Shown: positions 48,959-64,000 of the stretch, one piece after another
Layout: each line of letters starts with the position of its first letter
Position numbering within the stretch: the stretch's first letter is position 1
Assembly: GCF_006538365.1 (NCBI RefSeq)
Contig: NZ_BJKN01000002.1
Coordinates: forward strand, 882,411 to 946,410
Reading direction: 5' to 3'
Origin: Moorella sp. E308F
GTDB lineage: Bacteria > Bacillota > DSM-521 > Neomoorellales > Neomoorellaceae
Length of the DNA stretch: 64,000 nucleotides
Notes under the pieces: generated by a model
The model's input: only the letters and a program-made list of their open reading frames with translations
Told to the model about the DNA's origin: nothing
The model's database searches: none
Translations under genes and position numbers: made by a program

Positions 48959-50311
48959 TTACCCGCTGATGGTCATGCTGGCAATACGCACCGTCGGGGC
49001 ACCGGTGGCGCCAAAAAAGGTGAGGTCGTTGCCTACGGCGTCAATGCCCTCCAGGAGGCCGATGATGTTGCCGGCAATGGCCACGCCCCGGACCGGCCTG
49101 GTCAGCTCGCCATTTTCAATCCAGAGGCCGCTGGCGCCGACGGAAAAATCGCCGGAGATGGGATTGGCCGTATGCATGCCCATGACTTCGGTGACGTAAA
49201 GTCCCCTGGGGATCTCTTTAATAATATCTTCCGGGGTGCGGGAGCCGGCCGCGATATAAAAATTGGTCGTCCCGACTTCCGGTGTTGTCTTGAATGAACC
49301 CCGGGCACCGTTGCCGGTGGATTTTACCCCGTCCCGGGCGGCTGTATAGGTGTTGTGCAGGTAGCATTTAAGGACCCCTTTTTCCACCAGCACCGTGTGC
49401 TGGGTGGGTACTCCCTCGCCGTCAAAGGGGCTGGAGGCAATGCCGTCCGGCCGGCGGCCGTCGTCGATAATATTCACAACCGGTGCCGCCACCTGCTGGC
49501 CCACCCGGCCCCGGAAAAGGGATTTGCCCTTCTGGACGGCATCGGCAGCAAGGGCCGGGGCGATGACCCCCAGGAAGTTGGTGGCTACATAGGGGTCAAA
49601 AACAACGGCCGCCCGCTGGGTATCAACCCTTTTGGCTCCCAGCATGCGCACGGCCCTGGCCGCCCCTTCCCGGCCGATCTTCGCCGGATCGATATTTTTA
49701 TACCGCAAGCTATAGGCCAGGCCGAAACCTGTCTGGCTCTCTTCGTTTTCCACCGCCACCACAAAGGTGCTGGCGCCGCAGTAGGCGGCAAGGTAAGCGG
49801 CTGTTATCCCCTGGGAGTTTACCAGGACAACCAGGTAGCGGGAATCGTTATAGGAACAGCTTTCCGTGATCTTCACCCGCGGGTCATAAGCCCTGGCCTG
49901 GCGTTCAATCTCCCGCACCAGCTCGATCTTTTTTTCCACCGGGGTTGTGGTAATTTCCGGGTCAAAGAGGTCCAGCTGGGGGTAGCCGGGATAGCGGGCC
50001 GGCAGGCAGTTATGCTCATCTGGGGTAGCCATCCGGGCGTTGGCCAGGGCCTGCTCTACGCAAAGCTCAAGGGCCGTGGGGCTGAAATCGGTGGTAAAGG
50101 CAAAACCCACCCGCTGGTCGGCTATGACCCTTAAACCCAGGCCCTGATCCCGGGCCGTAGTCAGGGCCTCGACTTCCTGGTTGCGCACCTCGATGCTTAA
50201 ATTTTCACCGGCACTTATGTAGGCTTCGGCAATAGCCCCTTTTTCGGCCGCCATCTCTACCACCCGCGCCGCCAGGTCAAGGTAGTGTTTTTGTAAAACC
50301 TGGTAATCCAT
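48959..50311 (-). CDS. pmbA: TldD/PmbA-family protein, PmbA-like
   Basis: A 450-aa TldE/PmbA-type protein, the non-catalytic partner in TldD/E metalloproteases ([48 protein letters not shown]). Its ATG overlaps the tldD stop (TGATG), indicating one complex. TldD/E proteases degrade or mature peptides such as microcins and CcdA; the target here is unknown. Confidence 0.9.
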
Positions 50312-51714
50312 CAGCCTTTATCCTCCTCGTCCAGGATGCCGCCAACTACCATCTCAGGAATGCGAATCGTGGGCTGCGCATCTCCAACCGGTACTCCCTG
50401 GCCGTCTTTGCCGCAGGTACCTAAGGAGAAGCCCAGGTCGCTGCCCACCCGGTCGATTATCTTCAGTACCTCGGGGCCGTTGCCGGTGAGGGTGGCCCCC
50501 CTGACGGCCGGGCCAATCTTGCCGTCCTGGATGAGATACCCTTCGGCCACATCAAAAACAAAGTCGCCGTTGGTGGTGTTGACCTGTCCGCCGCCCATGC
50601 GCTTGACCAGCAGGCCGTGCTTGGTTTCCCGCAAAATAGCTTCCGGGTCGTCTTTGCCGGGAGCGATAAAGGTATTGGTCATGCGGGGTATGGGGCGGTC
50701 CTGGTAAGATTCCCGGCGACCGTTGCCGGTAGAACGGCGGTTCTCCTTACGGGCTGTCAGGTAATCATACATATAATCCTTCAGGATGCCGTTTTCGATG
50801 AGCACGGTTTTCTGTCCCGGCATACCTTCGTCGTCAAAACGGTACGAACCGTACTTGCCGGGAATGGTGGGATCGTCAATAACGGTTATCAGGTCGGAAG
50901 CTACTTTCTGCCCCTTCTTGCCGGCGTAAACGGAAAGCTGCTTTTGGACCAGGTCGGCTTCCAGGCCGTGACCGCAGGCTTCGTGAATCATGGTGCCGCC
51001 GGCCTCGCCCGCCATAACCACCGGCATCTTGCCCGCCGGTGCCGGCCTGGCCTCCAGCATCATGACGGCCCGCCGGGCAGCCTGTTGCGCCTTCTCTTCT
51101 GGGTTAACGCTTTCAAAAAGTTCCCACCCCTGGTGCCCGCCGGCCGATTCAAAACCTGTCTGGATAATTTTGCCGTCGGTGGCCACGGCATTGACGACAA
51201 AACGGCAGCGTACCCGCTCGTCATCTACCAGGATGCCGTCGCTGTTGGCAATGGTTACCTCCTGAATAACGTCGCCGTAACCCACCGTAACCTGGGTAAT
51301 GCGCTTATCGACGGCCCGGGCGGCCTCATTGGCCCTTTGCACCAGGGCTACTTTTTCGGCTACCGGCACCTGGTCGGGCCGCTTTTTAATGGTAAATTCC
51401 ACTTGTGCTTGCGGCCGTTTAAAGCTAATTTCCCTGGGCTGGGGCCGGCTTTGCAGGGCTTTACCAACCAGGGTTGCCGTCTGGATGAGGCTCTCCCGGC
51501 CCAGGTCATTGCTGTAACCATAGGCGGTGTTCTCCCCGGCAATGACCCGTATGCCGGCTCCCTGGTCAAGGCCGGATATAACCCGTTCAATCTTATTATC
51601 CTCGCAGCTGATGCTGGTCGTCCGGCGCCGTTCCAGGAAAATTTCTGCAAAATCGCCACCTTCAGCCAGAGCGGCCTCCAGGATGGCCTTCAGATCGGCT
51701 TCACTTAAAAGCAT
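50311..51714 (-). CDS. tldD: TldD metalloprotease
   Basis: A 467-aa catalytic subunit. The zinc motif HExxxH is present in GGTMIHEACGHGLEADLVQ; a Cys near the C-terminus (LGTCGKDGQGVPVGDAQPTIRI) may be the third ligand. It is paired with pmbA. Confidence 0.92.
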   Translation of the reverse strand: MLLSEADLKAILEAALAEGGDFAEIFLERRRTTSISCEDNKIERVISGLDQGAGIRVIAGENTAYGYSNDLGRESLIQTATLVGKALQSRPQPREISFKRPQAQVEFTIKKRPDQVPVAEKVALVQRANEAARAVDKRITQVTVGYGDVIQEVTIANSDGILVDDERVRCRFVVNAVATDGKIIQTGFESAGGHQGWELFESVNPEEKAQQAARRAVMMLEARPAPAGKMPVVMAGEAGGTMIHEACGHGLEADLVQKQLSVYAGKKGQKVASDLITVIDDPTIPGKYGSYRFDDEGMPGQKTVLIENGILKDYMYDYLTARKENRRSTGNGRRESYQDRPIPRMTNTFIAPGKDDPEAILRETKHGLLVKRMGGGQVNTTNGDFVFDVAEGYLIQDGKIGPAVRGATLTGNGPEVLKIIDRVGSDLGFSLGTCGKDGQGVPVGDAQPTIRIPEMVVGGILDEEDKG

Positions 51715-51776: not shown

Positions 51777-53117
51777 CTAATCCTTACGTGAAAAATGGAG
51801 GCTGGCCAGGGTGGCCAGTAATTGATCGTAGTCACCAATACCGCCGGCCTGCCATTCCAGGCTGAAGGTCAGTTGCTGGACGAGGAAGAGGGGTAAATCC
51901 AGGTATTGGGGGTAATCACCCGGCCTGATTTCTCCCTGGTAAAGCTGCCGGCCGTCGGCAAAAATGGTGACTTTAACTTTACCGCTGCTGTTGGCAAAGC
52001 TGTCATCGATACCGATGTATCCCTGGAGGCGTGTGTATTGTTTCTGGAGATCGACCTTTAACTCGGCTTGATTGTGCTCCTTGCTTAGATTTACACCGAC
52101 GCTGCGGGCTAGTTGCATGCCGGCCAGGGCCGCCGGCCGCTCCAGAACATAGAAGGGCCCTACATTGCGCAGCACCCGCAGTTCTTCCAGCCAGACATCC
52201 CTGTTGCCAGCGGGGGGGTCCTTGAAGGCCGGTCCCGCCTCCAGCCGGCCCTTTACCTGGCGGGGGAAGGTATATTGAGGCGCCTGTCCGGCGCCTGCCG
52301 GGGCCGGGAAGACAGGCTCCGGTGGGTTTGTTCCCGGGTTACCCGCAGGTGCCGGGGAGGCAGGAGGAGCAGGTGACAGCTTTACTGGTACCGAACCAGG
52401 AGTTGCAGCCGTAGAGGGGCTGGCCGGACTGCTCCCGGCAGCCTCTCCCTGGCCAGGAGAAGCCCCCGTACCTTTAGCTCTATCCCCGGCAGCAACCGCC
52501 CCCGCCGGGGGCGTGAAACCATCGGCCCGCCCGGCCGGAAAAAGGGCAATAGCTCCAGGGACTGGATTGTCTTCTCCCAGATCGTACAGGTCTATAATAA
52601 AGCTCCCTTCGACTGTTCCAGCGTTTCCCTGGCGCGCAAGGATCTTCAAATTACGGATGGCCGTCAGGGCCGGCAAGGATTCCAGCTGATTTATGTAATC
52701 CTGCAGCGCCGGGTAGGGGCCGCTGACGGTAACTTCATAGGGATAGACCCGGAAGGGGTCTCTCTTTTCCACCGGCAGGGGACGGAAGGCCAGTACCTGG
52801 AGGGACCGGTCCCGGGGCTGGGCCGCCTCCAGGAAGGGTGCTGTACCCCGGAGGGTAAAACCCAGGTGGAGCCTGGTAGCCTCCCATGCGGCCCGGGCCT
52901 GGTCGGCTTTTTGGGCCAGCTCGGCTGCAGATGCTGCCGCCTGCCTGGCGGCAGCCAGGCGCTCCTGGCCTGCCTTGAGCCTTCCCCTGAGCTCCCGGTA
53001 GGCCGGCAACTGCTGCCCTAAAACTACATTATTGAAGAAAATAATCCCTACGACAACGGCCAGCAAAACCAGCAATATTTTTTCCCGGCGGCTGAACTGG
53101 TAGGTACCAAATTTCAT
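51777..53117 (-). CDS. pilO: PilO-like protein with C-terminal NPCBM-like domain
   Basis: A 446-aa inner-membrane pilus assembly protein. Residues ~13-33 form a transmembrane helix, ~40-80 a coiled coil, ~85-180 the PilO ferredoxin-like core (VYPYEVTVSGPYPALQDYINQLESLPALTAI). A Pro/Ala/Gly linker (~195-275) leads to a C-terminal domain (~309-446) with the NPCBM pattern: ARSVGVNLSKEHNQAELKVDL, YTRLQGYIGIDD, KVKVTIFADGRQLYQ, YDQLLATLASLHF. NPCBM domains bind carbohydrates. Ordinary PilO is ~200 aa, so this doubles its length. Confidence 0.8.
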   Translation of the reverse strand: MKFGTYQFSRREKILLVLLAVVVGIIFFNNVVLGQQLPAYRELRGRLKAGQERLAAARQAAASAAELAQKADQARAAWEATRLHLGFTLRGTAPFLEAAQPRDRSLQVLAFRPLPVEKRDPFRVYPYEVTVSGPYPALQDYINQLESLPALTAIRNLKILARQGNAGTVEGSFIIDLYDLGEDNPVPGAIALFPAGRADGFTPPAGAVAAGDRAKGTGASPGQGEAAGSSPASPSTAATPGSVPVKLSPAPPASPAPAGNPGTNPPEPVFPAPAGAGQAPQYTFPRQVKGRLEAGPAFKDPPAGNRDVWLEELRVLRNVGPFYVLERPAALAGMQLARSVGVNLSKEHNQAELKVDLQKQYTRLQGYIGIDDSFANSSGKVKVTIFADGRQLYQGEIRPGDYPQYLDLPLFLVQQLTFSLEWQAGGIGDYDQLLATLASLHFSRKD

Positions 53118-53749
53118 TTACTGTTGCCTTCCCTGCCTGCGTTTATAGAATCCGGGTTTGCTTTTGTTGCATCGCCGGGTGCGGGAACTGCTCTTGCAGT
53201 CTCTGTTTTACCTGTCTCCGCCCGGGCACCTTTAAAGACTGCCTGTATGGTAAAAGCAAGGCTACTGCCATTACCCTTAACTTCCTGGAGATTGACGGCC
53301 TCCCAGAGACCGCTTGCCTGCAGGTTATTTAAATAATTACCGATGGCCTGGAGGGAAGTACTCCCCCCGGCTAGGATTAGTTCTCCTTTGGCTTCGTTTG
53401 CTTCCAGGCGGGTCAGCCAGATCTCCCGCGGCAGGGCATCGTTTATTGCAGCCAGAACCGGCTGCCAGCGCCGCCTTTCCTTTACCAAACGCTGCAGTTC
53501 CCTTTCCTTCTGCTGCCATTCACTAATGGCGCTTTTACTGGCTGTTGCTTGCTGCGCCTGGGGTTCATACTGGGCCAGCTGCGCCTCCACCCCGGCAACG
53601 CGCCTGGCCATCAGCCCCCATTGGATCAGGAATAAAAGATAAAGCGTTAAGAGTAATCCTCCTAAAGCCAGGGCGATAATGGCTCCCTTTGGTAACGACC
53701 GCCTCTGCGGCAGGTACTCCGGGGGCAGTAAATTAATAGCCATACTCAT
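53114..53749 (-). CDS. pilN: Type IV pilus assembly protein PilN
   Basis: A 211-aa protein with the PilN start MSMAINLLPPEYL, one membrane helix (about 22-44) and a periplasmic domain (PREIWLTRLEANEAKGELILAGGSTSLQAIGNYLNNLQASGLWEAV). It overlaps pilM and pilO by a few bases. Confidence 0.9.
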   Translation of the reverse strand: MSMAINLLPPEYLPQRRSLPKGAIIALALGGLLLTLYLLFLIQWGLMARRVAGVEAQLAQYEPQAQQATASKSAISEWQQKERELQRLVKERRRWQPVLAAINDALPREIWLTRLEANEAKGELILAGGSTSLQAIGNYLNNLQASGLWEAVNLQEVKGNGSSLAFTIQAVFKGARAETGKTETARAVPAPGDATKANPDSINAGREGNSK

Positions 53750-54651
53750 ATTTCCCTCTCCCGTAAAGCCAGGCCCATGGCTACGGCCAGGGCCGGGTCT
53801 GGGGACCCATTAAAGCCTGTCCCCGGGCGGCCGATAATTACCGTTACTCCCAGTTCCTCCCGATAGTAATCGACCAGGCCCTCCACCTGCGCTCCCCCTC
53901 CGGTAAGGATGATGCGCTCCGGGTTAAAGATCGTCCCGGCCTGGGAACGGTAAAACTCCAGGGAGCGCCGGATCTCCTGGGCCATTTCGGCCATACGGCT
54001 GCTACCGGTTATACCGGGCTGGCTGAGTTCTCCTGCGCCAATGGCTACTACCCGGCTGAAAAGGGGCCGTCCCTCCCGGGCCAGGACCAGGTTGCTCCAG
54101 CGGCCGCCAATGTCAATGATGACCGTGGCGCCAGCGGCCTCTCCGGCCAGGGCGCGGCAGAGGGCCAGGGGCACAAGGTCGATGGCCACCAGGTCCAGGC
54201 CGGCGGCATGGAAAAGCTGGTATAAGCCCGTCACCTGTTCCCGTGGCGCCGCAGCAAGGAGAACCGGCATCTGGTCGCCGGCCGCATCATTACCGGCATC
54301 CAGGATGGCCCAGTCCACTACCATGTCCCGGGCCCCGGTGGGCAGGTAATTTTCGATTTCATAGGCCATGCCACTTTTGAGTTCCTCGGGGGTCATCCGC
54401 GGCAGGCGTAGGTAGCGGACGATCACCCTTTCCCCGCTGACGGCCGTCACGGCCCGACGACCGCGCCAGCCGGTCCGGGAGGCCGCCTCGGCAACGGCCG
54501 CCACCATGGCCTGAGTATCAGCCAGGCCACCCTGGGGAGTCGGGACGCTGGCCGTCAGCCACTGCCTGCCCTGGTATACGGCCGCCTTGACGGCAGTTGT
54601 ACCGAGGTCGATGCCCAGATAGTGGCGACGTTTCAGGAACGAACAGAACAT
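53746..54651 (-). CDS. pilM: Type IV pilus assembly protein PilM
   Basis: A 301-aa actin-like ATPase: LGIDLGTTAVKAAVYQG (phosphate-1), TVIIDIGGRWSNLVLA and IILTGGGAQVEGLVDYYREELG. It binds PilN at the cytoplasmic face. ATG 54651 follows AGGAG. Confidence 0.92.
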   Translation of the reverse strand: MFCSFLKRRHYLGIDLGTTAVKAAVYQGRQWLTASVPTPQGGLADTQAMVAAVAEAASRTGWRGRRAVTAVSGERVIVRYLRLPRMTPEELKSGMAYEIENYLPTGARDMVVDWAILDAGNDAAGDQMPVLLAAAPREQVTGLYQLFHAAGLDLVAIDLVPLALCRALAGEAAGATVIIDIGGRWSNLVLAREGRPLFSRVVAIGAGELSQPGITGSSRMAEMAQEIRRSLEFYRSQAGTIFNPERIILTGGGAQVEGLVDYYREELGVTVIIGRPGTGFNGSPDPALAVAMGLALREREI

Positions 54652-54734: not shown

Positions 54735-56165
54735 TTATTGCTCCAAAGCTGCCACCCGCCAGGAAAGGATCTGCCAGTTACCCTGATTCAAATAGGGAGC
54801 CAGGGAACCAACAAGGTTCTGATCATAGGTTATGCGGATCTTACCCTTAATTTTATGGTCATTATCTTTATCCTCACCATTACCATTCCCCTGCCCGTTT
54901 CCGTTATTATTATCATTACCCCTTATTTCCTGATTGCTGCCGGAAGTATCATAGCTACCTTCGTCGATTGCACCGACGTACCTGGTTACCAGGCTCCCGT
55001 TAATGGTACTCTCCTGGCCGCGATCATTCTTACTAAAGGTGCCCCCGTCAATAAACATTCCTCCCAGTCTGGTACCACCGGAAATATTTAAATCCCCGCC
55101 GGCAATGAAGGCCCAGGCATTTCCAACGGAAGCAGGTAACAGGCTGGTCTCCAGGGTGATGCTGCCCGAAGCGGCAATAATGGCGATACCATTATAATAA
55201 TACAAGGTGCTATGGTCGTTGCCATTGCTATTGCTATTGTTATTACCATTGTTATTGTTATTGCCATGATCATTGTCATGGCCAGCCGTTATGGTCAGGT
55301 CTCCCTGCCGATAAAGAATCGCCGGAGTCATGCCGGTATTATTAACCATGGCCTGGATTTCCTCAATGGTATATGTATCTTTCCCCAGTGTTAAACCGTT
55401 TGTAAAAGGAGCATCGAGGTTGTCGGGAAAGGATGGGAAAGTTAAGCTGACACCTTCAAACTTGTTGCCGTAGATTTTATCTTTATTATAAATAACTCCA
55501 CCGGCGGTGGCGTCGCCTTTGATGGTTCCCTTAACATAAAGATTCCTGCCAGCTACAGCGTTCCCCTGGAGAGTACCATTCACCGCTAAATTGCCACCAG
55601 CAGCCACATTGATGATATTATCTTCGCCGAAAACAACTTTCAAATTGTTGATATCCCCCAGGGCAAGGATATCCCCTCCGCTAATAATCAATTTGTCTTG
55701 CTTATCCAGGTCACCGGCAGTAGCCAGGGCAAAGGTATACAGGGGTCGGGCCAGGTCAACCTCTACGGCCCGCTGGACACCACCAACCTGGGCCAGGGAG
55801 CGCAGGCGGTAGCTCAATACCTGCTGGCTGATATCTACTCTCTGGATATATCCCTGGACGCCAGTTAAAGATGTTTCCCCCAGCCCCTCCCGCCAGCCGG
55901 GATCTTGGCGTAATCTTGCCAGGGCCAGGTTGATGCCAGCTTCGGACAAATAAGTGGCCTGGATAATCTTAACATCATTCGCCGCGCCCTGGCGCTCCAC
56001 CAGGGAGAGAGAAAGAAGCCCGGCCCCCAGGAGGGAAAGGACCAAGATGGCCAGCAGCACTCCCGGCAGGGCGCTGCCGCGCCGGTGCCAGCACCTCCCC
56101 GGCAACCCCACCCCATCAATTCTTCCCTTGCCTGTAGCTATACTCCGCCGCCAGTTGCCGGCCAA
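54735..56165 (-). CDS. PilX-like protein with beta-helix and Asn-rich inserts
   Basis: A 476-aa protein. The N-terminus carries a prepilin-like hydrophobic stretch (RGSALPGVLLAILVLSLLGAGLLSLSLVERQ, about 29-58), suggesting cleavage after Gly and assembly in the pilus. A long region (about 155-240) of short G-x-N-rich beta-strand repeats follows (IISGGDILALGDI, INVAAGGNLAVNGTLQGNAVAGRNLYVKG). Two Asn/Gly/Asp-rich tracts (about 298-320 and 423-447) are encoded by degenerate AAT/GGT/GAT runs. It looks like a large minor pilin or tip adhesin. Start uncertain. Confidence 0.7.
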   Translation of the reverse strand: MAGNWRRSIATGKGRIDGVGLPGRCWHRRGSALPGVLLAILVLSLLGAGLLSLSLVERQGAANDVKIIQATYLSEAGINLALARLRQDPGWREGLGETSLTGVQGYIQRVDISQQVLSYRLRSLAQVGGVQRAVEVDLARPLYTFALATAGDLDKQDKLIISGGDILALGDINNLKVVFGEDNIINVAAGGNLAVNGTLQGNAVAGRNLYVKGTIKGDATAGGVIYNKDKIYGNKFEGVSLTFPSFPDNLDAPFTNGLTLGKDTYTIEEIQAMVNNTGMTPAILYRQGDLTITAGHDNDHGNNNNNGNNNSNSNGNDHSTLYYYNGIAIIAASGSITLETSLLPASVGNAWAFIAGGDLNISGGTRLGGMFIDGGTFSKNDRGQESTINGSLVTRYVGAIDEGSYDTSGSNQEIRGNDNNNGNGQGNGNGEDKDNDHKIKGKIRITYDQNLVGSLAPYLNQGNWQILSWRVAALEQ

Positions 56166-57659: not shown

Positions 57660-58412
57660 TTATATAAACCTGCCAAGATACCAGTGCAACATTTCCTCGC
57701 CAAAAAACAACGCCAGCAGCCCCCCCATGGCGATAAAAGGCGCGAAAGGAAGAGGGTCCTGCCGCTTTTTCCGGCCGGTGACCAGCAAGCAAACGCCCGC
57801 CAAGCCGCCTGTGACCAGGGAAAGGAAAAGAGCCAGAGATGCCAGGGGCCAGCCGAGGAAAAGCCCTACCATACCTGCAAGCTTGACATCCCCGCCGCCC
57901 ATGCCACCTTTACTTATTACGGCAACCAGCAGCAAAAATCCTGCTGCCGCAACTGCTCCCCATAAAGAAGACCAAAACCCCACATCCCGCGCCAGCAGGC
58001 TTAAAAGAATACCGCCGCAGGCACCGGTCACCACGAGGCGGTCAGGGATCAGGTAGTGCTCCAGATCGATGAAGCTGGCGGCTACCAACACGGCGCTTAG
58101 AAAAAGGTATTTTACCAGGATCCAGGAGAGGCCGAAATTATAAAAAAGGGTGGTAAATACCACGCCTGTGACAAGCTCTACTAAAGGGTATCGAGGGGAA
58201 ATCGGCAGGCGGCAGTAACGGCACCTGCCCCGCAAGAGCAGGTAGCTCAATACGGGTATAAGGTCGTACCAGGCCAGCGCCCGCCCGCAAGCCGGGCAGT
58301 GCGAACGACCCCAGACCACCGTTTCCCCGCGCGGCAGGCGGTAAATGACCACGTTGAGGAAACTACCGATAAAAAGACCCGCTAGGAAGAAAAAAACTTC
58401 AATCCAAAACAT
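57660..58412 (-). CDS. pilD: Prepilin peptidase/methyltransferase PilD
   Basis: A 250-aa membrane protease. Two CxxC pairs (HCPACGRA, CRYCRLPISPRYP) bind zinc, and the catalytic Asp residues lie in SFIDLEHYLIPD and GMGGGDVKLAGMVGLFLG. It removes prepilin leaders before the N-methylated residue. ATG 58412 follows GAAGGGAAAAG. Confidence 0.93.
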   Translation of the reverse strand: MFWIEVFFFLAGLFIGSFLNVVIYRLPRGETVVWGRSHCPACGRALAWYDLIPVLSYLLLRGRCRYCRLPISPRYPLVELVTGVVFTTLFYNFGLSWILVKYLFLSAVLVAASFIDLEHYLIPDRLVVTGACGGILLSLLARDVGFWSSLWGAVAAAGFLLLVAVISKGGMGGGDVKLAGMVGLFLGWPLASLALFLSLVTGGLAGVCLLVTGRKKRQDPLPFAPFIAMGGLLALFFGEEMLHWYLGRFI

Positions 58413-58491
58413 ACTTTTCCCTTCTACCACATTTATGGCAAGCCCAACTACACGACAGACGCCTATTACCCAAACGACAAGCGCGCCGGCG

Positions 58492-60018: not shown

Positions 60019-61227
60019 CTACCTTATGCCGCCCAGCATCTGAAAGTAGGGAAGAAAGACCGAAATTACGATAAGCCCTACTATGCTGCCGAGGCCGACG
60101 ATGAGGACGGGTTCTATCAGTGAAGCCAGGCGGGCCACGACCGCCTCCACCTCCTGCTCATAAAGACCCGCCACTCGTTCGAGCATGGCATCCAGGGCCC
60201 CAGTTTCCTCGCCTACCGTAATCATCTCCACCACCATGGGAGGGAAGACGCCGCTCGCTTCCAGTGGAGTCGCCAGGCTCTGCCCGTCGCGAACGCTTTC
60301 TGCCGCCCGCTCCACCGCGCCGGCCACCACAGCATTGCCCACCGTACGCCGAACTATTTCCAGGGCCAGCAGGACCGGTACACCGCTGTGCAGGAGGGTA
60401 CCCAGGGTGCGGCTGAAACGAGATAGAACCGCCTTATGATGCAGGGGACCGAAAATTGGTAAACGAAGGAATAAACGGTCGACCTGGTAGCGCCCCGCTG
60501 GCCTTTGCTGCCAGCGGTAAAACCCGTAACCGGCGCCGGCCAGGAAAAAGACCAGAAAAGGCCACAAGCGCCGTAACCATTCACTTAGCCCCAGAACCAG
60601 GCGCGTCGGCCAGGGCAGGGGCACCTGCAGGCTGTTCAACATGACCTGGAAGGAAGGCAGGACATAAGTCAGGAGAAAAATAACTACCAGGAGGGCAACC
60701 ATGCTGACTATCGCCGGGTAGGTCAGGGCCGACTTGACCTTTTCCTCTACTTCATGTTCCCGTTCCAGGTGCCCGGCCAGGCGCTCCAGGGTCTCGTCCA
60801 GGGCCCCGCCCAGCTCCCCGGCCTCGACGGTATGGATGAAGATAGGCGGGAAGACCCGGGGCTGCCGTTCCAGCGCCCGGTAAAAGGCCTCCCCGGACTC
60901 CAGGTCCTGGAGAAGCATACCGATACTTTCTCGCAGGGAAGGATTTTCTGCCTGTCGCTGTAAAATATGCAAGGCCGTCACAATCGGCAGGCCAGCCCCC
61001 AGCATGGTCGCCAGCTGGCGGCTGAAGAGGGCCAGGTCGCGACGGGATACCGGCCGCCGGAAAAGGCGCCGCCATTCCCGGGCTGGGGTTACAACCGCCG
61101 GCCGGCAGTAAGTAATAAAAATCCCCTGCCGGCGCAGTTCCCGGATGGCCAGTTCCTGGCTTTCCGCTTCAATTGTCCCGCTAACTGCATTCCCCCTGGC
61201 ATCCCTTCCCCGGTAGGCAAAATTCAT
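60019..61227 (-). CDS. pilC: Type IV pilus inner-membrane platform PilC
   Basis: A 402-aa GspF-family protein with two repeated GspF domains (about 60-185 and 265-390; FSRQLATMLGAGLPIV and FSRTLGTLLHSGVPVLLALEIV) and three membrane helices. ATG 61227 follows GGAGGG; the frame upstream is non-coding. Confidence 0.93.
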   Translation of the reverse strand: MNFAYRGRDARGNAVSGTIEAESQELAIRELRRQGIFITYCRPAVVTPAREWRRLFRRPVSRRDLALFSRQLATMLGAGLPIVTALHILQRQAENPSLRESIGMLLQDLESGEAFYRALERQPRVFPPIFIHTVEAGELGGALDETLERLAGHLEREHEVEEKVKSALTYPAIVSMVALLVVIFLLTYVLPSFQVMLNSLQVPLPWPTRLVLGLSEWLRRLWPFLVFFLAGAGYGFYRWQQRPAGRYQVDRLFLRLPIFGPLHHKAVLSRFSRTLGTLLHSGVPVLLALEIVRRTVGNAVVAGAVERAAESVRDGQSLATPLEASGVFPPMVVEMITVGEETGALDAMLERVAGLYEQEVEAVVARLASLIEPVLIVGLGSIVGLIVISVFLPYFQMLGGIR

Positions 61228-61420
61228 GCTTTCCCTCCAAAATATAAATAGCCACCGGCAACAGGGAAAGATAGAACTCTTCCCCGGCAGCCCGGCGGCC
61301 ATGACAGCGTCTACAGGCCCGTAGCTTTGCGCCCCCGGCTTTCGCCGGGTTTGCCTTGAACGAGGATATATGGACATTTATTCGTCATAAAAAGGCAAAT
61401 TCCTGCTAATCCTGGCGCCG

Positions 61421-62440
61421 TTAACCATTATTTAATTCTCTATCCGCTATCATACCCCTGGTGACCAGCTGCCGCAGAGCCATGTCCATGGTCTGCATGC
61501 CGTAGCGGGCTCCCGTCTGCATGCTGGAAACAATCTGGTGGGTTTTACCCTCGCGGATGAGATTCTTAACAGCCGGGGTAGCAATCAGCACTTCCACGGC
61601 TGCCACCCGGCCCTTCCTGTCGGCCCGCGGTAAAAGCTGCTGGGTGATAACCCCTTCCAGGGTGTCGGCCAGCTGGATGCGGACCTGCCCCTGCTGGTGG
61701 GGCGGGAAAACGTCAATGATCCGGTCAATGCTCTGGATGGCACTGCTGGTATGTAAAGTCGCCAGGACCAGGTGACCCGTTTCCGCGGCCGTGATGGCCG
61801 TGGCAATAGTCTCCAAATCCCGCATCTCGCCGACCAGGATAACATCAGGGTCCTGGCGCAGGGCGGCCCGCAGGGCACTGGCAAAGGAACGGGTATCTGA
61901 ACCCACTTCCCGCTGGTTGACGATGCTACGGCGGTGCTGGTGCAGGTATTCAATGGGGTCTTCCAGGGTAATAATATGGCAGCTGCGTTCCCGGTTGATT
62001 TTATCCACCATGGCCGCCAGAGTGGTGGACTTGCCGCTACCCGTCGGCCCCGTCACCAGGACCAGGCCGTGCTGTCGTTCCGCCAGCTCGGCCACCACCG
62101 GCGGTAATCCCAGGGTTTCCAGGCTGGGTATCTCCCTGGGTATAAGGCGGATGGCTGCGCTAACGCTTCCCCGCTGGTGAAAGACATTCACCCGGAAACG
62201 GCTTACGCCGGGCAGGGAGTAAGCCAGGTCTATTTCTCCCCGCTCTTGCAATACCTCCCACCTCTCGCCCACCATAGGCCGTACCAGGCTGGCTGTCATT
62301 CCGGAATCCAGGGGCTCCCACTGGCGCTGGACTTGGAGTTCGCCGTGGACCCGGAAAACCGGCGGCAGGCCGACAGAGAGATGGACATCGGAGGCCCCGG
62401 CGGCAGCCGCCGCCCGCAGGATGGTTTCAATGTCGAACAT
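61421..62440 (-). CDS. pilT: Twitching/retraction ATPase PilT
   Basis: A 339-aa hexameric ATPase. Walker A VTGPTGSGKSTTLAAMVD, Asp box EDPIEYLH, Walker B DPDVILVGEMRDLET, His box GHLVLATLHTSSA. Start ATG 62440 after GGGAGG. It depolymerises the pilus. Confidence 0.95.
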   Translation of the reverse strand: MFDIETILRAAAAAGASDVHLSVGLPPVFRVHGELQVQRQWEPLDSGMTASLVRPMVGERWEVLQERGEIDLAYSLPGVSRFRVNVFHQRGSVSAAIRLIPREIPSLETLGLPPVVAELAERQHGLVLVTGPTGSGKSTTLAAMVDKINRERSCHIITLEDPIEYLHQHRRSIVNQREVGSDTRSFASALRAALRQDPDVILVGEMRDLETIATAITAAETGHLVLATLHTSSAIQSIDRIIDVFPPHQQGQVRIQLADTLEGVITQQLLPRADRKGRVAAVEVLIATPAVKNLIREGKTHQIVSSMQTGARYGMQTMDMALRQLVTRGMIADRELNNG

Positions 62441-62607
62441 TTTAATCCTCCCGGATAAAGCCAGGATAACAAACGCAAGGATTTTTAATAGCCAACTGCT
62501 ACCAATGTTAATAAACAACGTATAGTGCCGGGCTAACTGCAAAGGGCAGAACTATGAATTCAAGATCAATGGAAGTATATGCCACCCGGGACAGTACAGT
62601 CTGGTCT

Positions 62608-64000
62608 TTACAAACCGCCCAGGGAAACACGCAGGACTTCACTCACCGTGGTAATCCCCTGGCGGACTTTTTCCAAACCGTCCTCGATCAAAGGCACCAT
62701 ACCGGCAGCTACGGCCGCCTCTTTCAGGGCCGTGGCCGGTGCCTTGGCGGTCACCAGGCCGCGGAGTTCTTCATTCATCACCAGCACCTCCTGGATGGCC
62801 GTCCGGCCGGCATAACCGGTAAAGCTGCAGCGCTGGCAACCCCGTCCCCGCCAGAGTTCTTCTACTGCGGGCAGCCAGGTCTTTTCCAAAGACCCCGGCT
62901 CGGGTCGGTAAATCTCCCGGCAGTGGGGGCAGAGCCGGCGCACCAGCCGCTGGGCCACTACGCCGATAAGGGAAGAGTTGACCAGGTAAGGTTCAACGCC
63001 CATATCTAAGAGGCGGGTGACGGCCCCGGCGGCGTCATTGGTATGGAGGGTGCTGAACACCAAATGGCCGGTGGTCGCCGCCCGGACGGCGATATCCGCC
63101 GTTTCCCGGTCGCGAATTTCTCCTACCATAATTATGTCGGGGTCCTGGCGCAAGATAGATCGCAAACCTGAGGCAAAGGTTAGACCGGCCTTGGGATTGA
63201 CCCGTACCTGGTTGATGCCGGGCAGCAGGTATTCTACGGGGTCTTCAATAGTAATGATGTTTTTTTCCGGTGAGCATAAAATGTTAAGGGTGGCATAGAG
63301 GGTTGTCGTCTTACCGCTGCCCGTGGGACCGGTAATGAGGAGCATACCGTAGGAACTGTGGATGAGGCTCGCAAAGCGCTCTTTTATGGCTGGCAAAAAT
63401 CCCAGGTCGTCCAGGGACAGGAGCATGGCCTCCTGGTCCAGCAGGCGCAGGACGATCTTTTCCCCGTAAACCGTGGGCAGGCTGGAAACACGCAGGTCGA
63501 CGTTGCGTTTACCCAGGGTAAATTGAAAACGGCCGTCCTGGGGCAGGCGCTTTTCGGCAATATCCATGCCCGCCATGATCTTGATCCTGGAGATCAGGCT
63601 GCTTAGAACCCCCAGGGGCAGGCGGGTTAACTCCCGCAGCAGGCCATCCACCCGCAGGCGTACGCGTACTTCCCCTTCCTGGGGTTCGATGTGGATATCG
63701 CTGGCCCGCATCTGGATCGCCTGCTGGATAAAGCTGTTAACCAGCCGTACAGCCGGTGCCCCTTCGGTACCGCCGGGACCGGGAGCTTCCAGGGCAGCGG
63801 CGGCCGCCGCCTCGCTCATGCTGGCAGCAGTTTCCTTCTGCCAGAACCTGCTCAAAGCCTCTTCAATTTCCCTTTCAGCAGCTATAGCCGGCATGATCTC
63901 CTTGCCGGTAGCCAGGCGCAGGTCGTCCAGGGCCAGCAGGTTCAGGGGGTCGGCCATGGCTACCAGGAGACGGTTGCCGTCCAGGCGAATGGGGATGGCC
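62608..64000 (-). CDS. pilB: Pilus extension ATPase PilB (5' end beyond window)
   Basis: The frame continues through the right edge; 63958-64000 encodes AIPIRLDGNRLLVA in frame before the ATG at 63957, so the gene is N-terminally incomplete here. It has the MshEN-type N-domain (DPLNLLALDDLRLATGK), Walker A GPTGSGKTTTLYATLN, Walker B DPDIIMVGEIRDRET, and a C4 zinc cluster (LCPHC...GCQRC). It drives pilus polymerisation and begins the pilB-T-C order. Confidence 0.95.
   Translation of the reverse strand, partial: AIPIRLDGNRLLVAMADPLNLLALDDLRLATGKEIMPAIAAEREIEEALSRFWQKETAASMSEAAAAAALEAPGPGGTEGAPAVRLVNSFIQQAIQMRASDIHIEPQEGEVRVRLRVDGLLRELTRLPLGVLSSLISRIKIMAGMDIAEKRLPQDGRFQFTLGKRNVDLRVSSLPTVYGEKIVLRLLDQEAMLLSLDDLGFLPAIKERFASLIHSSYGMLLITGPTGSGKTTTLYATLNILCSPEKNIITIEDPVEYLLPGINQVRVNPKAGLTFASGLRSILRQDPDIIMVGEIRDRETADIAVRAATTGHLVFSTLHTNDAAGAVTRLLDMGVEPYLVNSSLIGVVAQRLVRRLCPHCREIYRPEPGSLEKTWLPAVEELWRGRGCQRCSFTGYAGRTAIQEVLVMNEELRGLVTAKAPATALKEAAVAAGMVPLIEDGLEKVRQGITTVSEVLRVSLGGL

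Follow-up and report, generated by a model that had tools for sequence, protein, structure and literature searches.

A predicted CBM51 domain fused to PilO in Moorella and its separately encoded counterpart at pilMNO loci of Bacillota without a secretin

How do monoderm bacteria that lack a secretin hold a retracting pilus and guide it through the cell wall? The question is raised by a type IVa pilus locus in the 64,000-nucleotide stretch of Moorella sp. E308F DNA analysed here (the window), where the last pil gene encodes a PilO that runs on past its usual end: canonical PilO stops after its core, whereas the Moorella protein adds a 100-residue linker, a short motif and a CBM51 domain. Monoderm PilO proteins have been described as much larger than PilN, and a role in wall translocation or anchoring, with the extra C-terminal part as the possible anchor, was proposed for them and called entirely speculative (Pelicic, 2019; PMC6916266). 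Here we ask what the added domain is, where it came from and what it may do.

The fused PilO and its predicted fold

The pil genes run along the minus strand of the window in the order pilB, pilT, pilC, pilins, prepilin peptidase, minor pilins, pilM, pilN and, last, pilO (Table 1). The ATG of the fusion gene overlaps the pilN stop, and its 446 codons contain no internal stop. Its product has the hallmarks of type IVa PilO (PF04350), namely a place in a type IVa pilus locus downstream of pilM-pilN, a single N-terminal transmembrane helix, a coiled coil and a ferredoxin-like core. The Pfam match to PilO lies just above threshold (aa 103-176, E=1.2e-4, 22.6 bits against a cut-off of 22), and in the AF2 model the core aligns with P. 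aeruginosa PilO (2rjz) at Z 13.3 and an rmsd of 1.6 A over 90 residues (VIA-align). After pilO come a TldD/TldE-like pair and then aroQ-, pepP- and efp-like genes (window 48959-51714), an order retained near pil loci in many genomes.

Table 1. Features of the fused PilO and of its pilus locus, in window coordinates.
Feature	Position	Strand	Basis
pilO-CBM51 fusion gene, 446 aa	51777..53117	-	open frame; Pfam PilO + NPCBM
NPCBM/CBM51 domain, aa 302-446	51780..52214	-	PF08305; fold match to 7jrm
YTFPRQ, aa 282-287, relic of the Y-x-F-P-x-[RK] C-terminal motif of unfused PilO	52257..52274	-	motif comparison
Disordered Ala/Pro/Gly-rich linker, aa 182-280, containing GRxDxF at aa 196-201	52278..52574	-	pLDDT < 50 over 181-280; composition
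PilO ferredoxin-like core, aa 91-181	52575..52847	-	VIA-align to P. aeruginosa PilO 2rjz
N-terminal membrane helix + coiled coil, aa 10-84	52866..53090	-	AF2 secondary structure H10-84
pilN	53114..53749	-	PF05137 E=4.7e-9
pilM	53746..54651	-	PF11104 E=1.1e-24
PilX_N-like minor pilin, weak match	54735..56165	-	PF14341 E=0.007, below cut-off
Prepilin peptidase (PilD-like)	57660..58430	-	CPxC motifs, repeated in relatives; NCBIfam match only weak
pilC platform protein	60019..61377	-	NCBIfam GspF/PilC, E to 1e-122, below equivalog cut-offs
pilT retraction ATPase	61421..62542	-	TIGR01420 E=7.6e-147, above cut-off
pilB extension ATPase	62608..63957	-	GspE/PilB models E to 3e-176, below equivalog cut-offs

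The initial annotation had read an NPCBM-like domain at the C-terminus of this PilO and expected structure prediction to return a jelly-roll, and both expectations were borne out. Pfam NPCBM (PF08305) matches aa 348-427 with E=2.3e-11 and 44.3 bits against a gathering cut-off of 23.9, and the predicted domain adopts the CBM51 jelly-roll fold, aligning with 7jrm at Z 16.6 and 2.1 A over 132 residues, the best unrelated fold reaching Z ~10.5. The model, like the others used here, was built on 8-10 sequences; its pLDDT is ~90 across most of the domain, falls below 50 in the linker and rises again from residue 281, where the YTFP motif starts. The resemblance is recognizable at the level of profile and fold, since phmmer of the single domain against the PDB gave E=0.96 only and an alignment profile was required to reach E 4.7e-7. 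Of the motifs that had first suggested the domain, GYIGIDD and FADGRQLYQ are both in the sequence, and the third, given as D-x2-L-x2-A-L, was misquoted, the residues being DQLLATLA (D-x2-L-x2-L-A); the domain lies where it was first placed (51777-52193) and is slightly larger, at about aa 302-446. We considered whether NPCBM copies are simply common in such genomes and rejected this, as the PilO fusion is the single NPCBM match in its own genome. That the domain binds carbohydrate is a prediction from its fold and family: the modules of C. perfringens GH95 and ZmpB that it resembles (2vmh, 7jrm) are, like other solved CBM51s, parts of glycan-degrading enzymes or glycopeptidases, whereas the subfamily described here has invariant residues of its own, is confined to pilMNO loci and shares 12-20% identity with them.

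A partner gene after pilO and the history of the fusion

In three genomes of the same class (G004, G020, G021), the CBM51 domain sits not on PilO but on the gene that follows it. A search of an even draw of 398 Bacillota genomes, a sample of the phylum, with a profile of the domain (A1) matched strongly in 33 genomes (E 5e-35 or better), which a clear gap separates from six weak ones (E 1.9e-14 or worse). In 33/33 of the strong matches the domain is part of PilO or encoded directly after pilO, pilM and pilN lie upstream in every case where the contig is long enough to show them, and the position in or directly after pilO holds as well for 9/9 named loci. The CBM51 domains at pilMNO loci are a distinct subfamily, the most conserved residues of which (RNVGPF, E352, GxxD, YP, GDY) are family-specific. 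We rejected the idea that NPCBM domains go with pil genes in general, as the six weak-scoring genomes carry mostly long multidomain NPCBM proteins and, among short NPCBM proteins outside the subfamily, the three inspected (L102, L103, L104) have no pilMNO nearby. Since the domain occurs in only ~33 of the ~250 PilN-bearing genomes in the draw (about 13%, a rough figure because Pfam detection of PilN, positive in 249/398, is incomplete), it is no general solution to crossing the wall.

The separate gene, which we call X, is present in 21 unfused loci, each time directly after pilO, the position of PilP. It encodes a putatively secreted protein of ~235-285 aa (411 in L049), in which a Cu_amine_oxidN1 domain (PF07833) follows a signal-like, hydrophobic N-terminus and precedes the CBM51 domain (PF08305). 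In the predicted model of an unfused X the CBM51 domain aligns with 7jrm at Z 18.2 and 2.0 A over 134 residues; model confidence is low in the Cu_amine_oxidN1 half. The fused forms are without Cu_amine_oxidN1, and that part is therefore dispensable. The Moorella genome has 15 Cu_amine_oxidN1 matches, so the domain lost from X on fusion is abundant in other proteins.

The unfused PilOs that accompany X share a short tail motif. Y-x-F-P, mostly as YxFPx[RK], stands in the last 25 residues of 21/21 of them and of 0/40 PilOs sampled from loci of other PilN-bearing genomes, a contrast for which Fisher's test gives p=8e-17, which is overstated because the rows are phylogenetically related. The one exception is a PilO of the same class from a locus that lacks X (L032); its ending, YVWPK, may be a relic of the motif. 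Among fused PilOs, Y-x-[FL]-P is found at the junction of linker and CBM51 domain in 12/12 examined, with Y282 and P285 invariant (alignment A2), and because the motif persists there without Cu_amine_oxidN1, comparison of these sequences suggests that it functions together with the CBM51 domain. A further motif, GR-x-[DN]-x-F, lies shortly past the PilO core (window 52509-52532, aa 196-203) in fused and in many unfused PilOs and is possibly a second docking site; similar GxxDPF endings were seen in PilOs without X.

Fused homologues were found in eight Moorella species-level genomes (our own included), four genomes of other genera in the family and two of Thermosediminibacter type, the closest named relatives found being M. 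mulderi and M. stamsii, with 86-87% identity across the domain. Exceptions among the Moorella relatives are one pil locus without the CBM51 domain and another genome without a PilN match; we also observed that in a divergent pil locus of the same genus that has no CBM51 domain (L034:13447-14922, G014), PilM and PilN are apparently one 491-aa ORF. By crude Nei-Gojobori estimates against three Moorella relatives, dN/dS in the CBM51 domain is 0.15-0.18, close to that of the PilO core (0.11-0.18) and below that of the linker (0.29-0.34), and the domain is under purifying selection. Chance similarity or a frame artefact was rejected on the Pfam score, on these low values and on the recurrence of the fused form in 12 or more further species-level genomes.

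The initial annotation did not see that the fusion stems from a two-gene arrangement that is widespread, and this tells more about the gene: the pilO-X pair is ancestral and the fused PilO is the derived state. The simplest history is an in-frame fusion in which the pilO stop and the signal peptide and Cu_amine_oxidN1 domain of X were lost and the tail motif was retained. In a tree of PilM+PilN the fused forms make one clade (79/57; 77% of bootstraps) with the unfused G004 near its base, and Thermosediminibacter stands beside the genomes of L029-L031 (99/99), a grouping that disfavours an independent fusion in that lineage; the CBM51 tree alone asks for two changes, without firm support. The history is best read as a single fusion in the Moorella family and a later transfer to Thermosediminibacter.

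The PilP position, wall anchoring and its rivals

The secretin-less envelope assumed in the initial annotation agrees with our search, in which secretin (PF00263) was absent from the Moorella genome itself, from its whole class (0/22 genomes positive) and from the other X-bearing genomes searched (0/20, making 0/42 in total), and present in 6/14 control genomes. Conversely, all 13 Bacillota genomes with a PilP-like gene after pilO have a secretin, and a larger PilQ-like gene mostly comes next where the contig extends. X, which follows pilO where secretin is absent, thus takes the PilP slot in genomes without the partner to which PilP connects; it is like PilP in gene position, but with no PF00263 match in the 42 genomes it does not coexist with a PilQ secretin. 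Inspection of the N-termini of unfused X proteins revealed no lipobox Cys, and a domain scan found no LysM in the fused and unfused proteins that it covered. In a secretin-bearing genome (G141), a 622-aa ORF (L118:1255-3123) starts as PilO, ends like the PilP-type proteins of other loci (...EFVLELGG) and lies directly before the secretin gene; PilO and PilP are probably fused in it, which gives a parallel where a secretin is present.

As the gene after pilO makes the same domain in many secretin-less relatives, the domain may fasten the pilus machine to the wall, and we judge it reasonably probable from the genomic pattern that X, free or fused, tethers the PilMNO ring to wall glycans in place of the PilP-secretin connection. 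The genomic evidence fits the earlier suggestion that the PilMNO complex is tied to wall glycans and makes it more likely. The fused PilO comprises three parts, the usual membrane helix and core that pair with PilN, a flexible linker of ~100 residues and the CBM51 domain, and its tail would extend through the wall; by our estimate a flexible stretch of ~100 residues could reach across some 30 nm at full extension. The YxFPx[RK] motif would dock X, in trans where X is a separate protein and in cis where the two are fused, and the CBM51 domain, given its fold and family, would bind a wall or surface glycan. Held in this way, it would keep the PilMNO/PilC ring in place and give the retraction force purchase on the wall, the job of PilP-PilQ/TsaP in diderms. 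We advance more tentatively the broader proposal that X is an unnamed core type IV pilus component of secretin-less Bacillota, a wall anchor replacing PilP-PilQ-TsaP that docks on the conserved C-terminal YxFPx[RK] tail of PilO and, with its CBM51 domain, holds the PilMNO ring to wall glycan.

CBM51-like jelly rolls can bind proteins. The main rival to wall anchoring, which we consider unlikely, is a protein-protein module whose binding to PilN, PilC, a minor pilin or the pilus itself stabilizes the assembly ring or gates it, without a part for glycan. The family-specific nature of the most conserved residues would suit such a module, as would matches of the jelly roll to non-sugar domains at Z 8-10, and diderm PilP stabilizes PilN/PilO through protein contacts (PMC6916266); against it, CBM51 matches stand far above other folds (Z 14-18 against ~10.5), and methyl-galactose and GlcNAc are among the ligands in solved CBM51 structures. 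We give very little credence to a surface-displayed adhesin that binds external polysaccharide or host or substrate glycans: the linker is long and the CBM51 domains of known enzymes bind environmental glycans (from the titles of the PDB matches), but in every genome found the domain is tied to the basal machine rather than to a pilin, and its sequence is well conserved among distant taxa of different habitats. That the domain is a spent one carried along by accident in Moorella is scarcely credible, for although fusion of neighbouring genes is common and the fused forms are without Cu_amine_oxidN1, this reading is already disfavoured by selection on the domain near that on the PilO core, by persistence of the fused form from Moorella to Thermosediminibacter and by the strict pilO-X linkage.

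Precedents and meaning

The idea of a PilO that binds the wall is not new; what seems to be new is its CBM51 form, together with partner gene X and the tail motif. We found no literature joining NPCBM or Cu_amine_oxidN1 domains with PilO in a search outside which most subscription journals lie. In the chloroflexotal Litorilinea aerophila, a PilO with a LysM domain is proposed by its describers to bind peptidoglycan directly (PMC13319060, 2026). That protein is likewise a PilO with an extra domain expected to contact the wall, but the domain is LysM and not CBM51, the gene adjoins an archaellum locus, PilM is absent and the fusion is known from three genomes only (PMC13319060). It is nonetheless a close precedent, and the CBM51 form is therefore a variant rather than a new kind. 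The enlarged PilO of Streptococcus sanguinis (PilH) is another monoderm case, extended at its C-terminus by a large additional region with a proposed role as wall anchor (PMC4832360, PMC6916266); no relation of that region to NPCBM is reported. In diderms, TsaP has a peptidoglycan-binding role (cited in PMC13319060), and TsaP and PilP/PilQ (cited in PMC13319060 and PMC6916266) resemble the proposed anchor in their proposed role of linking an inner-membrane ring to a rigid layer of the envelope, X occupying the PilP gene slot; X differs from them in having no LysM, secretin or lipobox and, judged by its CBM51 domain, probably in its fold.

Other loci in our draw show different additions around pilO. 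One secretin-less genome (G072) encodes, downstream of pilO, a secreted Cu_amine_oxidN1 + Big_14 (Ig-like) protein (L112:3192-3968), which may be an alternative X that ends in another domain. Three PilOs of 406-436 aa (L122:1257-2477, L140:3701-4951, L143:3671-4981) have an extra C-terminal region with no Pfam match and similar endings of the KPRxNVxxxxGxVxxxx type, and these regions are candidates for further wall-facing domains. Three genomes have a second pilM-like gene after pilO (L115:2569-3762, L119:2464-3552, L137:2551-3639).

For the question of how monoderms secure a retracting pilus, the extra part of PilO in Moorella is a recognizable carbohydrate-binding fold, and in other genera it has a defined partner gene. 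A short tail motif predicts the partnership of pilO with X, and the fold, the partner gene and the motif are all directly testable.
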